64,000 nt of DNA, taken from assembly GCF_000172555.1 (NCBI RefSeq), contig NZ_ABOX02000015.1, positions 62,001 to 126,000 on the forward strand, given 5' to 3'. Below, piece after piece: positions 8,167 to 53,873 of the stretch; the first letter of the stretch is position 1; every line of letters starts with the position of its first letter. This DNA comes from Pedosphaera parvula Ellin514 (GTDB lineage: Bacteria; Verrucomicrobiota; Verrucomicrobiia; Limisphaerales; Pedosphaeraceae). Made by a program: the position numbers and the translations under genes. Below the pieces are notes generated by a model that was given only the letters and a program-made list of their open reading frames with translations, ran no database searches and was not told where the DNA came from.

Positions 8167-8847
8167 ATGCCAAAGACAAAAAAGAGTATCGTATTCTGCC
8201 ATGGGCTCTGGGCCGATGGCTCGTGCTTCAGTAAGCTGATCGTTCCCCTGCAGGCGGAGGGCTATGAATGTATTGCGGCGCAGTACGGCTTGAACACAAC
8301 GGCGGAGGATGTTGCCGCAGCGAAAGAAACGATAGGCCGGGTAAGTGGTCCCGTTATCCTCGTCGGCCACTCCTACGGCGGAAGTGTCATTACCGGCGCC
8401 GGAACCGACGATCGTGTTGTCGGACTGGTTTACATCGCCGCGCTCGCGCCGGATGCCGATGAAACATCTCAGACGCAGCAGGCTAAGTTTCCGGGGACCG
8501 ACGTCTTTTCCCAAATAGAAGTCGTGGATGGACGTATCTGGCTGCGGCCGGAGGGCACAAAGTACTTCTGCGGCGACCTCTCGGAGGAAGAGCAGAAGCT
8601 CGTTTGGGCGACCCAGGGCGCGCCGAAACCCGACCTATTCGAGGCGAAAGTCGGGGGTACTGCCTGGAAGTCGAAGCCGAGCTGGTACATCGTCGCCAAG
8701 AAGGACCATACGGTGCATCCCGATCTAGAGCGAGCCATGGCAGAGCGCATGGGCGCGACTACCTATGAGGTTGCCAGCAGCCACGTGCCAATGCTTTCCC
8801 AGCCAGGCTTCGTGCTCGACGTGATCCGGAAGGCCGCAGGCGCCTAA
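8167..8847 (+). CDS. cassette gene: alpha/beta hydrolase
   Basis: 226 residues of the AB hydrolase (esterase/salicylate-binding-protein-like) type. The oxyanion region is FCHGLWADGS near residue 12, the nucleophile elbow is GHSYGG (Ser near residue 65), and a C-terminal SSHVPMLSQP carries the likely catalytic His, with Asp in KKDHTVHPD. No signal peptide, so probably cytoplasmic. Substrate unknown. ATG 8167 is preceded by AAAGGAG at good spacing, so the cassette carries its own ribosome site. It is the first cassette after head B; its stop overlaps the R box of the next attC. Confidence 0.85.
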   Translation: MPKTKKSIVFCHGLWADGSCFSKLIVPLQAEGYECIAAQYGLNTTAEDVAAAKETIGRVSGPVILVGHSYGGSVITGAGTDDRVVGLVYIAALAPDADETSQTQQAKFPGTDVFSQIEVVDGRIWLRPEGTKYFCGDLSEEEQKLVWATQGAPKPDLFEAKVGGTAWKSKPSWYIVAKKDHTVHPDLERAMAERMGATTYEVASSHVPMLSQPGFVLDVIRKAAGA

Positions 8848-9047
8848 CCAAGCGCGAGCCTGTGTGAAAACTCAGGAAAACAGCAGTAGCCGGATCCATT
8901 TGCAATGAGTTACAAGATTGTATCAACGACTTACAAAAGCGGTTTGGAGTTTTCACACGGGCTCGCGCTGCAGCGAACGGCGGCATCGCATCACTGTTGC
9001 AATCGGCGAGCCTTGTGGCCGCCGTCGCTGAGCTTGGGTCGTTAGGC
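8842..9047 (+). other. attC site interrupted by a small inverted-repeat element
   Basis: GCCTAAC (8842-8848) and GTTAGGC (9041-9047) bound the site. Removing 8854-8966 restores a 93-base attC of the main type in this array: CAGCGAACGGCGGC pairs with GCCGCCGTCGCTG with one unpaired A, the extrahelical base expected in attC. Confidence 0.85.
8854..8966. mobile_element. 113-bp MITE-like insertion inside attC
   Basis: The ends GCGAGCCTGTGTGAAAACTC and GAGTTTTCACACGGGCTCGC are inverted repeats with 19 of 20 positions matching. The interior codes for nothing. A related end (GAGGCTGTGTGAAAACTC) occurs at 53626 at the equivalent place in another attC. Non-autonomous; no transposase for it is in the window. 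Confidence 0.75.
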
Positions 9048-10233: not shown

Positions 10234-10722
10234 ATGACCATTATGCACGCAGAACCAAGGCTAAAAACCTATCGCGTAATCAGTCCCGGAGTCCAGATAT
10301 TTGGATTGGCGCTTTGCGTGGCACTGACGGCTGTTGCCATTCGCATTCCGGACTGGATTCCACGCATTTGCGGCTTCTTCACAGGCTTTGTTGCTCTGTT
10401 GCTGCTTTTCTTTCGCGAAACCCGGATTGATATTCAGCGCGGCGTGGTTGTCGAGGTTTGCCGGATTCTGGGCGTGATTCCGTTCTCCCGACGGGAGCGC
10501 AGGATGCAGGAGTATGCAGGTATTTCGTGTCACTGTTCGTCCGGAGTTACTAACGATATTTCAGATACATGGACGGTGGCGCTGCATCCGCGTTCTGGAC
10601 GAGCGGTGGCGCTGTGTCAATTTTCCGTAACGACCGGCAGTAAGGACTGCCCTAAAGCACGAGCTTTTGCGTGCGAGCTTTCCAGAGAGACGGGATTGGA
10701 GTTGATTGATTATGTGGCCTAA
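10234..10722 (+). CDS. cassette gene: small membrane protein
   Basis: 162 residues, starting at ATG 10234, 3 bases after the core box; ATG 10243 is an alternative. Two hydrophobic segments (about 22-39 VQIFGLALCVALTAVAIR and 45-62 ICGFFTGFVALLLLFF) are followed by a cytoplasmic or periplasmic domain of about 95 residues. The pattern resembles small PH-domain-like membrane proteins, but no family is certain. The stop lies inside the following attC. Confidence 0.7.
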   Translation: MTIMHAEPRLKTYRVISPGVQIFGLALCVALTAVAIRIPDWIPRICGFFTGFVALLLLFFRETRIDIQRGVVVEVCRILGVIPFSRRERRMQEYAGISCHCSSGVTNDISDTWTVALHPRSGRAVALCQFSVTTGSKDCPKARAFACELSRETGLELIDYVA

Positions 10723-10811
10723 CCATGCGCTGCAGCGACCGGCGGCATCGGGCTGTGGTTGCAATCGCCGCGTCTCTCGTGGCCGCCGTCGTTGAGCCTG
10801 GGTCGTTAGGC
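10717..10811 (+). other. attC site, main type
   Basis: GCCTAAC (10717-10723) to GTTAGGC (10805-10811), 95 bases, with the CAGCGACCGGCGGC / GCCGCCGTCGTTG arms. Confidence 0.85.
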
Positions 10812-13801: not shown

Positions 13802-13959
13802 TTAAATTGAGTCGGGGAAGCTTCGATAAATCATAGGTGTCTGGGGATAGGCCGTTTCTGGTGTGGAGATTTTCGGAAGCCACTTGAGATAAAGTTTCAT
13901 GCCGGTGTGGGAGGGGGTGAAGCCAAGGGCTTTGTAGAAGTCCTTGGCTCCGGAGCGGG
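13802..13959 (-). pseudogene. GNAT acetyltransferase C-terminal fragment, longer copy
   Basis: Minus-strand reading gives RSGAKDFYKALGFTPSHTGM then KLYLKWLPKI and a stop at 13802. It closely matches the fragment at 10851-10938 and extends about 25 residues further. Its upstream end is fused to the truncated intI at 13960. Confidence 0.65.
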
Positions 13960-14376
13960 ACGCGCAGGCCGCAACCATACAGCAGGCGGACCACCAGACT
14001 CGTGGCAAAATCGCCTCCGGCCTGCACGGTTTTTATGAGCAACAAAGTGTCTTCATGGTTCGGGGCGCGTCGGAGCTGACTCGGACGCCTTGCCCGCAAC
14101 GCCTGAATGTTCTTCAATTGCACCTCCATCGCCTCCTTGTAGAAGAAAAGGATGGCGTTAAGCGCTTGATTCCGGATGCTGGCGGTGACAGGGTTTTGAG
14201 CAAGCGCCGTGAGGAATCGTTCCCGTTTGAGTTCGCCGGGCAAATGAGGCGGCAATGTTTGAAGGTCGTTGCAGCATCGCTTGATGCCAGCCGCAGTAAA
14301 TCTGTTCGGTATTCAATGCAAGATGCTTTCGCCGCATGACGGCTGACAATGGTTTCAGTGCCTGAGCGGTAGTCAT
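13960..14376 (-). pseudogene. intI: longest integron integrase remnant (head C)
   Basis: From ATG 14376 the sequence reads MTTAQALKPLSAVMRRKHLA and LNTEQIYCGW, then shifts frame and continues as HLPGELKRERFLTALAQNPV, RNQALNAILFFYKEAMEV and finally SLVVRLLYGCGLRV. The last piece is the LLYGxGxR box with the first catalytic Arg of tyrosine recombinases. The gene is cut directly after it by the GNAT fragment, so the His-x-x-Arg box and the Tyr nucleophile are missing. About 145 of 320 residues remain. It is divergent from the cassette starting at 14467, the normal intI orientation. Confidence 0.8.
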
Positions 14377-14695: not shown

Positions 14696-14789
14696 GCCAA
14701 ACCATGCGCTGCAGCGAACGGCGGCGGGCCGTCGCCGTTGCAATCGGCGCGTCTCATGGCCGCCGTCGCTGAAGTTCGGTCGTTAGGCA
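14696..14789 (+). other. attC site, main type
   Basis: GCCAAAC (14696-14702, one mismatch to the R box) to GTTAGGC (14783-14789), with CAGCGAACGGCGGC / GCCGCCGTCGCTG arms and one unpaired A. Confidence 0.85.
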
Positions 14790-14792
14790 TTT

Positions 14793-15050
14793 ATGAGGCA
14801 TCGAAACGATTTCTTAAATGACTTAGGACGGCTCATTTGTTTAGTCGTTGGCACATTTTGTAGTCTTTATGCGATCCGCTCCGTTCACGATAGAAAGCTC
14901 AATGTAACATTTGGCCACAATACTAAGGATGCCGTTGTTACTCAGGTGACCGATCCTGTCGTGTTTTGGGGGATAGTGATCTTCATGTCGCTGATAGCAG
15001 CAGCTCTGTTTTATTGTGCTTTTTTTGCGAAAGACGGACCAAATGCCTGA
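14793..15050 (+). CDS. cassette gene: 85-residue membrane protein
   Basis: Starts at ATG 14793, 3 bases after the core box. Two hydrophobic segments (about 13-27 LICLVVGTFCSLYAI and 58-78 FWGIVIFMSLIAAALFYCAF). No family recognised. The stop overlaps the next attC. Confidence 0.65.
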   Translation: MRHRNDFLNDLGRLICLVVGTFCSLYAIRSVHDRKLNVTFGHNTKDAVVTQVTDPVVFWGIVIFMSLIAAALFYCAFFAKDGPNA

Positions 15051-15143
15051 CAAGTCGCCGGAGCCAACCGCCGTTGGCGCTGGCCGTTCCGCTGTCGCGG
15101 TTCACGCCACGAGCCGGCAGTGGCTCAGCTTTTTTCGTTAGAC
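15045..15143 (+). other. attC site, second type
   Basis: GCCTGAC (15045-15051) to GTTAGAC (15137-15143). Arms GGAGCCAACCGCC and CGGCAGTGGCTC place it in the GAGCC type. A closely similar, longer copy is at 55016-55177. Confidence 0.75.
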
Positions 15144-16760: not shown

Positions 16761-17000
16761 GCCTGCACCTCCTATAGAAGAAAAGGATGGCATTAAACGC
16801 TTGATTCTGGGTGCTGGCGAAGACATGGTTTTGAGCAAGCGCCGTGAGGAATCGTTCCAGTTTGAGTTCGCTGCGCAAGTGAGGCGGCAGTGTTTGAAGA
16901 TAATTTCAGTATCGCTTGAGCCGTAGTAAATCTGTGCGGTGTTCAATGCAAGATGCTTTCGCCAAATGACAGCTGACAATGTTTTCAGCGCGGTAGTCCT
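16761..17000 (-). pseudogene. intI: integron integrase fragment (head E)
   Basis: Frames include SAVIWRKHLALNTAQIYYGS and, shifted, LKLERFLTALAQNHVFASTQ and NQAFNAILFFYR, covering residues about 10-85. The first codons and most of the operator-like palindrome are deleted, joining GTAGTC directly to TTGTTCG. The 125 bases to its left (16636-16760) hold no gene. Confidence 0.7.
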
Positions 17001-17632: not shown

Positions 17633-17725
17633 ACCTAACCATGCGCTGCAGCGAACGGCGGCGGGCCGTCGCGCTTGCAATCGGCGCGCCTCGTGGCCGC
17701 CGTCGCTGAGCTTGGGGCGTTAGGC
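17633..17725 (+). other. attC site, main type
   Basis: ACCTAAC (17633-17639) to GTTAGGC (17719-17725), 93 bases, with the CAGCGAACGGCGGC / GCCGCCGTCGCTG arms and unpaired A. Confidence 0.9.
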
Positions 17726-21526: not shown

Positions 21527-21625
21527 GCCTAACGACCAAGAACTGAGCCACCGGCGACGCGGGACGTGAACCGCGCAGCGGAATTGCCGGCGCCAACGCC
21601 AGTTGGCTCCAGTGATGTGTTAGGT
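21527..21625 (-). other. attC site on the minus strand, second type
   Basis: On the minus strand it runs from ACCTAAC (21625-21619) to GTTAGGC (21533-21527), with arms GGAGCCAACTGGCG and CGCCGGTGGCTC. Intact and inverted relative to the rest of the array. Confidence 0.8.
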
Positions 21626-53612: not shown

Positions 53613-53873
53613 GCCTAACCATGTGAGAGGCTGTGTGAAAACTCCCTGCGCGATTGGGCGGTGAGTAATGGAACGGGAAAGTATTTTCCGGGATCAGAGT
53701 GGTCACAGCATCTTTATAGAAAAAGCTAACCGCGTTAAAGGCTTGATTCAGGGTGCTGGTCGCGACACTCTTCTGAGCCAGAGACGTCAGAAACTGTTTC
53801 AGTTTTTGCTTACTCGACAAATTAGAAGGAAGCCCTTTTATGCGAACCGCCGTTTGTATATTAATTATTAGGC
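53613..53873 (+). other. composite attC: R box, element end, intI fragment, attI-like end
   Basis: GCCTAAC (53613-53619) is followed 6 bases later by GAGGCTGTGTGAAAACTC, one end of the element complete at 8854-8966 and at the same place relative to the R box. Then 65 bases of other DNA, intI fragment H, and an end ATTAGGC (53867-53873). Confidence 0.55.
53709..53835 (-). pseudogene. intI: integron integrase fragment (head H)
   Basis: Minus-strand reading MSSKQKLKQFLTSLAQKSVA then TSTLNQAFNAVSFFYKDA matches residues about 50-85. More diverged than the heads in the first array. The core-box end to its right lacks the TGCGACACGTGTCGCA palindrome. Confidence 0.7.

Follow-up and report, generated by a model that had tools for sequence, protein, structure and literature searches.

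What places a short inverted-repeat element at a precise point inside the recombination site of an integron cassette, and does the site itself attract it? The question is raised by a 64,000-nt stretch of the Pedosphaera parvula Ellin514 genome (the window, C15:62001-126000, in a 7.41-Mb genome of 102 contigs; the counts below rest on genome searches). A reading made from the letters alone (the sequence-only reading) had described a 113-bp inverted-repeat element at 8854-8966 that splits an attC site between its R box and its inner arm, together with the same end some 6-7 bases after another R box at 53626, and had suggested that the attC hairpin attracts the element. Our analysis indicates that the element is a non-autonomous miniature inverted-repeat transposable element (MITE) of an IS1182-family insertion sequence (IS) whose transposase inserts into integron attC sites, a reading to which we assign a probability of roughly 0.88.

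The element is real, but comparison with intact attCs places its limits at 8856-8964, giving a length of 109 bp; the span first proposed took in 2 bp of GCGC on each side. The filled site reads GCCTAAC-CAAGCGC-[8856 GAGCCTGTGTGAAAACTC ... GAGTTTTCACACGGGCTC 8964]-GCGCTGCAGCGAACGG, and the intact attCs of the window read GCCTAAC-CATGCGC-TGCAGCGA. Because these have the four bases only once, GCGC has been duplicated at the insertion. The whole split attC spans 8842-9047 and is broken exactly 7 nt past the R'' box, which bears out the position first described. The 18-bp terminal inverted repeat is GAGCCTGTGTGAAAACTC, the arms pair at 96% over 23 nt, and the region around the element folds much better than shuffled sequence (z -5.7). 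The element is short and non-coding, its ends match IS ends, and it has the same GCGC duplication as a full-length IS described below (L191), as is typical of a MITE; it is the sole full-length copy in this genome. Removal of the element and one GCGC leaves a 93-nt attC with a normal fold, in which the R''/R' boxes, the unpaired spacer and the L''/L' stem are all present. With the element in place, the R'/R'' and L'/L'' pairings are kept in the predicted fold, the element ends pairing together so that the MITE forms an arm to one side. The filled attC may therefore stay usable for cassette recombination.

The terminus was found in 20 of 320 genomes of the order, belonging to 10 genera, while a control pattern was nearly absent. 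In all, 99 ends and 18 pairs were extracted, and removal of near-identical flanks left 89 distinct flanks from 21 genomes. An R''-like 7-mer lies exactly 7 nt outside the terminus in 46 of the 89, and each other offset accounts for two at most; the chance expectation at 7 nt is 0.31 (background rate 0.0035 per position). A further 28 flanks were scored as L'' sides, about 25 of them convincingly (NCRC-YGSAGCSAAC), three calls looking false (L133 GCGGTTAGG, L167 GCGCTGCCG and L200 GCGTTTAAA). Among the remaining 15 are degenerate attCs and elements standing back to back, as well as a few that are plainly elsewhere (genomes G004 and G218, and parts of G255). Nine of the ten insertions in the P. 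parvula genome are in attC, including one (C1:263362) that was read by eye, its altered terminus having escaped the extraction filter. The collection of copies and offsets that had been proposed as a check thus finds copies in attC at one offset. In two places, L120:106-145 and L189:2546-2585, the termini of adjoining elements are separated by no more than 4 bp (GCGC and TCGC), which looks as if a second copy had entered an attC already occupied. In two further cases, L170:2243 (G075) and L133:5944 (G005), the terminus stands directly at the R'' box or 2 nt after it rather than 7 nt; these are possibly deletions or a second insertion mode.

The geometry of insertion is equally regular. The four bases beside the ends are identical (GCGC, TCGC) in 10 of the 16 pairs with both flanks readable, and a GCTC duplication was read at C1:263362 beyond these pairs. 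A similar 7-nt spacer is present in intact attCs, where the 4 bp occur a single time. The target consensus is R''-N3-[NCGC]-YGSAGCSAAC, and insertion occurs where the spacer, ending in NCGC, meets the L'' arm, after attC alignment column 14, which is the midpoint between R'' and the L'' AGCSAAC. The duplicated NCGC takes in the last bases of the unpaired spacer together with the first two L-stem pairs, and a 2-nt bulge comes next. Insertions are confined to the R''/L'' arm, with none on L'/R'. Where the side of the transposase gene is known, ends could be classed by their interior sequence as right (IRR) or left (IRL) inverted repeat, and in 37 of 39 classifiable ends IRR points towards R'' and IRL towards L''. 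Since duplication (NCGC), position and orientation are consistent, an attraction of the element family to attC is supported by these comparisons.

A search for an IS with these ends, also proposed earlier, was successful. The parent IS measures about 1,670-1,680 bp and encodes a single DDE transposase, and the termini GAG(G/C)CTGTGTGAAAACT(C) are common to it and to several MITE families. An intact parent of 1,680 bp lies inside an attC of the congener Pedosphaera sp. RYN_629 (L119 3935-5614). Its 477-aa transposase scores 405 bits against NCBIfam NF033551 IS1182 (cut-off 270) and contains the Pfam domains DDE_Tnp_1_6 and DUF772. Two relatives, within the range of about 1.6-1.9 kb of single-gene IS1182-family IS and with terminal inverted repeats, are also in attC: that at L191 (G209; 1,672 bp) is full-length, with a perfect GCGC duplication and a stop in the transposase gene, and that at L193 (G238; 1,671 bp) is full-length or nearly so. 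A further full or nearly full relative in attC, on an Opitutae contig (L261), has its two ends against two different L'' arms. The transposases of the attC-inserted IS form one clade with support 99/98. No intact transposase of this IS was found in the P. parvula genome itself. Two ends in that genome, C10:71492 and C22:35230, each located 7 nt past R'', have C-terminal transposase remnants of 95% identity beside them. A transposase formerly encoded in this genome would have moved the MITE in trans, presumably by cut-and-paste; it would recognise the R''/L'' half of attC, as sequence or as folded DNA, and insert 7 nt after R'' with duplication of NCGC and with IRR nearly always facing R''.

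Several observations weigh against this reading. The tenth insertion in the P. parvula genome, C35:51043, lacks an R'' box. The 99/98 clade also includes the IS of G229, 61% identical, which is at a non-attC site with a CCGC duplication, and that of G255, which is in attC in only some copies. A MITE of G004 (L136:3701-3828) is in a palindrome resembling a repetitive extragenic palindrome (REP), CGCCTTCGCT-GGAA-AGCTACGGCG, with the 4 bp duplicated at its loop (the duplication can be read as GGAA or TGGAAA). Three of the 16 pairs have a one-base mismatch in the duplication; larger mismatches occur at L119 and L133, and the full IS at L119 has unlike 4-mers on its two sides (GCGT/TCAC), so that this copy may be recombinant. 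The interior of the 109-bp MITE has no match to IS copies in the genome search, the ends alone being shared. Finally, the evidence is static sequence from mostly fragmented genomes, so that every step from it is inferential.

Two other origins of the shared position were considered. A single old attC insertion might have been spread by cassette shuffling and homologous recombination, the position then reflecting common descent. IntI does carry attC along with its cassette, spacers recur among the copies (CATGCGC 11 times, AAATCGC 10 times), and solo ends are repeated in G007; but different elements (the full IS, and MITEs of 109, 119 and 149 bp) occupy the same position in attCs of differing sequence, with 20 different spacers and different cassette genes, and one MITE is found in both orientations (L129 and L130). 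The target duplications match their own sites and differ between copies, which largely refutes this explanation, and we consider it quite improbable. It is more improbable still that there was no insertion, and that the repeat belongs natively to one subclass of attCs. Although folding of the attC is still possible with the repeat present, as a side arm, the 4-bp duplications, the intact counterparts with the 4 bp once, and the IS with a transposase and the same ends all contradict it; a native attC arm is ruled out by the duplications and the full IS.

Within insertion by an IS1182-type element, the best explanation, recognition of sequence and recognition of structure are alternative modes and not competitors of it. 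The transposase may read the folded single-stranded attC hairpin, as IntI does, and insert at the edge of the unpaired central spacer. The insertion point, between the first two L-stem pairs and the 2-nt bulge, would suit this, as would the preference of IS1272/TnSha1, staphylococcal members of the IS1182 family, for hairpin-forming DNA with little sequence conservation (PMC5678879, PMC4923244), and the palindromic sites of the G231 IS (TTCA duplicated in the loop) and the G004 MITE. However, the hairpin has two arms and the R''/L'' arm alone is used, NCRCYGSAGCSAAC is conserved at the insertion site and proteobacterial relatives favour a sequence dyad. A preference for palindromic or hairpin targets is reported for some IS1182 members; attC forms a hairpin, but insertion is off the dyad centre and on one arm. 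Overall, we regard recognition of the fold as possible but doubtful. The use of one arm means that recognition of double-stranded R''/L'' fits the data as well as that of a folded strand, and we lean, with some reserve, towards a transposase that reads double-stranded R''-N3-NCRC-YGS-AGCSAAC, a sequence peculiar to attC, with no need for folding. The offset is fixed from both boxes, and AGC is as far from the insertion as WGC is in the dyad that the proteobacterial relatives target. Against this, the R'' sides and spacers vary considerably, and extrapolation gives about 1,500 occurrences per genome for the L'' core (CGCYGSAGC) by itself, so that R'' or a larger part of attC must be read as well. 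The targeting proposed in the sequence-only reading therefore stands, whereas the role that it gave to the hairpin goes beyond the data. A wider proposal, that the DDE transposase reads the folded attC strand, which is the integrase's own signal, that MITEs insert so as to keep attC recombinable, and that cassettes carry the element while the element lengthens or rewires attCs, seems to us unlikely.

The second site in the window has the same terminus as the 8856 element, at 53627 and exactly 7 nt after R'', as had been noted approximately; it is, however, one end of a truncated IS only. A second terminus was sought at this site and not found, which is why the copy is taken as truncated and not as a whole element. 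Ends resembling it adjoin C-terminal fragments of IS1182 transposases at L168 and L169. The site is best read as the IRR end of an IS copy, the remainder of which would have been deleted, joined to a decayed intI/attI remnant. The repeated combination of a solo end (CCCGGCGTGATTGGCGGGTG...), an intI fragment and an attI was also considered as a mobile integron platform transposed into attC, and was rejected as the principal explanation because similar ends elsewhere abut IS1182 transposase C-termini and no second terminus was found.

Targeting of attC is known for two other kinds of element. According to PMC11187229 (citing Tetu and Holmes, 2008, and Post and Hall, 2009), the IS1111-attC group of the IS110/IS1111 family (for example ISKpn4 and ISPst6) targets cassette attC sites at one defined position. 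The likeness to the present elements lies in this specificity, but those IS have a DEDD transposase, a seekRNA from a non-coding region and subterminal repeats, whereas the present IS encode a DDE transposase of the IS1182 family, end in true terminal repeats, duplicate 4 bp of the target and are accompanied by MITEs. Identity with IS1111-attC is ruled out by the transposase type, by which we set the two apart; a seekRNA was not looked for. Group IIC-attC introns are likewise mobile, and their target is one fixed place in attC, including in arrays that lack an integrase (PMC7923331). They are retrotransposing ribozymes that use TTGT/T at the R'' bottom strand, whereas the present element is a DNA transposon between R'' and L''. 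IS1272 shares the transposase family, but makes no duplication, replaces or partly deletes the hairpin and has little sequence preference, in contrast to the 4-bp duplication, retained attC and one fixed position seen here. No paper on attC-targeting IS1182 elements or on Pedosphaera integrons was found in the open-licence literature searched, and an attC-directed IS1182 clade with a 4-bp duplication and MITEs is apparently unreported. It gives attC a third, independent class of specialised parasite. It also bears on the decay of integron arrays in soil Verrucomicrobiota, where many attCs are split or cut to R'' and one IS end; cassette movement would presumably be hindered or frozen at such sites.

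More distant members of the family differ in their targets. Proteobacterial IS1182-family IS have a similar size (about 1.6-1.7 kb) and similar termini (CGAGGCTGTGTGAAAAC), and their transposases are about 44-48% identical, but their targets are GGCC/GGTC-centred dyads with the half-site RYCNNNWGCNGNCATT, not attC. As a test of hairpin covariation in these targets, left flanks were compared with right flanks, and pairing was slightly better within a locus than between loci (columns 10-18, permutation p 0.001), a difference that one locus, L230, helps to produce and on which we do not rely. At L230 (Paraburkholderia ginsengisoli NBRC 100965) a perfect inverted repeat, at least 25 bp long, stands on either side of the IS1182-family element, which looks as if it had inserted at the exact centre of a long palindrome or been flanked by an inverted duplication. 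The G231 IS (L286:1415-3134), outside attC, has a TTCA duplication that is the loop of the palindrome GCGGCA-TTCA-TGCCGC. Relatives with similar ends and different targets (attC, REP-like hairpins, sequence dyads) offer a direct route to the questions of how target choice is made in IS1182 and whether structure is read.

Table 1. Features of the two sites and their array; positions are in the window unless a contig is named.
Feature	Position	Strand	Remarks
R'' box GCCTAAC of interrupted attC	8842..8848	+	
Target site duplication GCGC, left copy	8852..8855	+	these 4 bp occur once in the intact attCs at 10717 and 17633
109-bp non-coding miniature element (MITE)	8856..8964	+	terminal inverted repeats of 18 bp at 8856-8873 and 8947-8964, with one mismatch between them
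Target site duplication GCGC, right copy	8965..8968	+	
Remainder of attC: L'', loop, L', R' (GTTAGGC 9041-9047)	8969..9047	+	covariance-model match C15:70960-71047 = window 8960-9047
R'' box GCCTAAC and 7-nt spacer CATGTGA	53613..53626	+	
Solo end of IS1182-type element (terminus 53627-53644 and IRR-like interior)	53627..53700, right limit approximate	+	other end lost
Integron integrase gene fragment (N-terminal part), decayed	53688..53823	-	TIGR02249 E 9.7e-5 at C15:115689-115823
attI-like junction GTATATTAATTATTAGGC ahead of next cassette	53856..53873	+	
Intact attC, uninterrupted control	10717..10811	+	
Intact attC	14697..14789		
Intact attC	15045..15143		
Intact attC, uninterrupted control	17633..17725	+	
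Intact attC	21527..21625		
attC insertions in the P. parvula genome	window 8856, 53627; C46:54158, 55088; C1:203298, 203859, 263362; C10:71492; C22:35230		

The region of the window is a cassette array, and its intact attCs (Table 1) are confirmed by the covariance model, which gives about 28 attC matches genome-wide at E up to 0.1, or about 0.04% of the genome length. At about 7231, 8080, 14435 and 17034 (+ strand) the array also has four attI-like junctions that are nearly identical to one another (..GCGACACGYGTCGCATATTGATTGTTAGGC or close variants); at least two of them lie immediately downstream of - strand fragments of integrase genes (13958-14242 and 16764-16937). Such junctions recur on contigs C10 and C22, and also outside the genus (L129, L130). 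It is unusual for one array to contain several decayed integron heads. In the congener G007 (L119-L128, for example L119:3647, L124:8857 and L127:3537), the right half of many attCs is replaced by another module, about 110 nt long (GAAATCCTGCTGGACGAACC...GGTTGTATATTAATTGTTAGGC), which follows either R'' and an IS end or a truncated attC; candidate origins of this module are an attI or an unusual attC.
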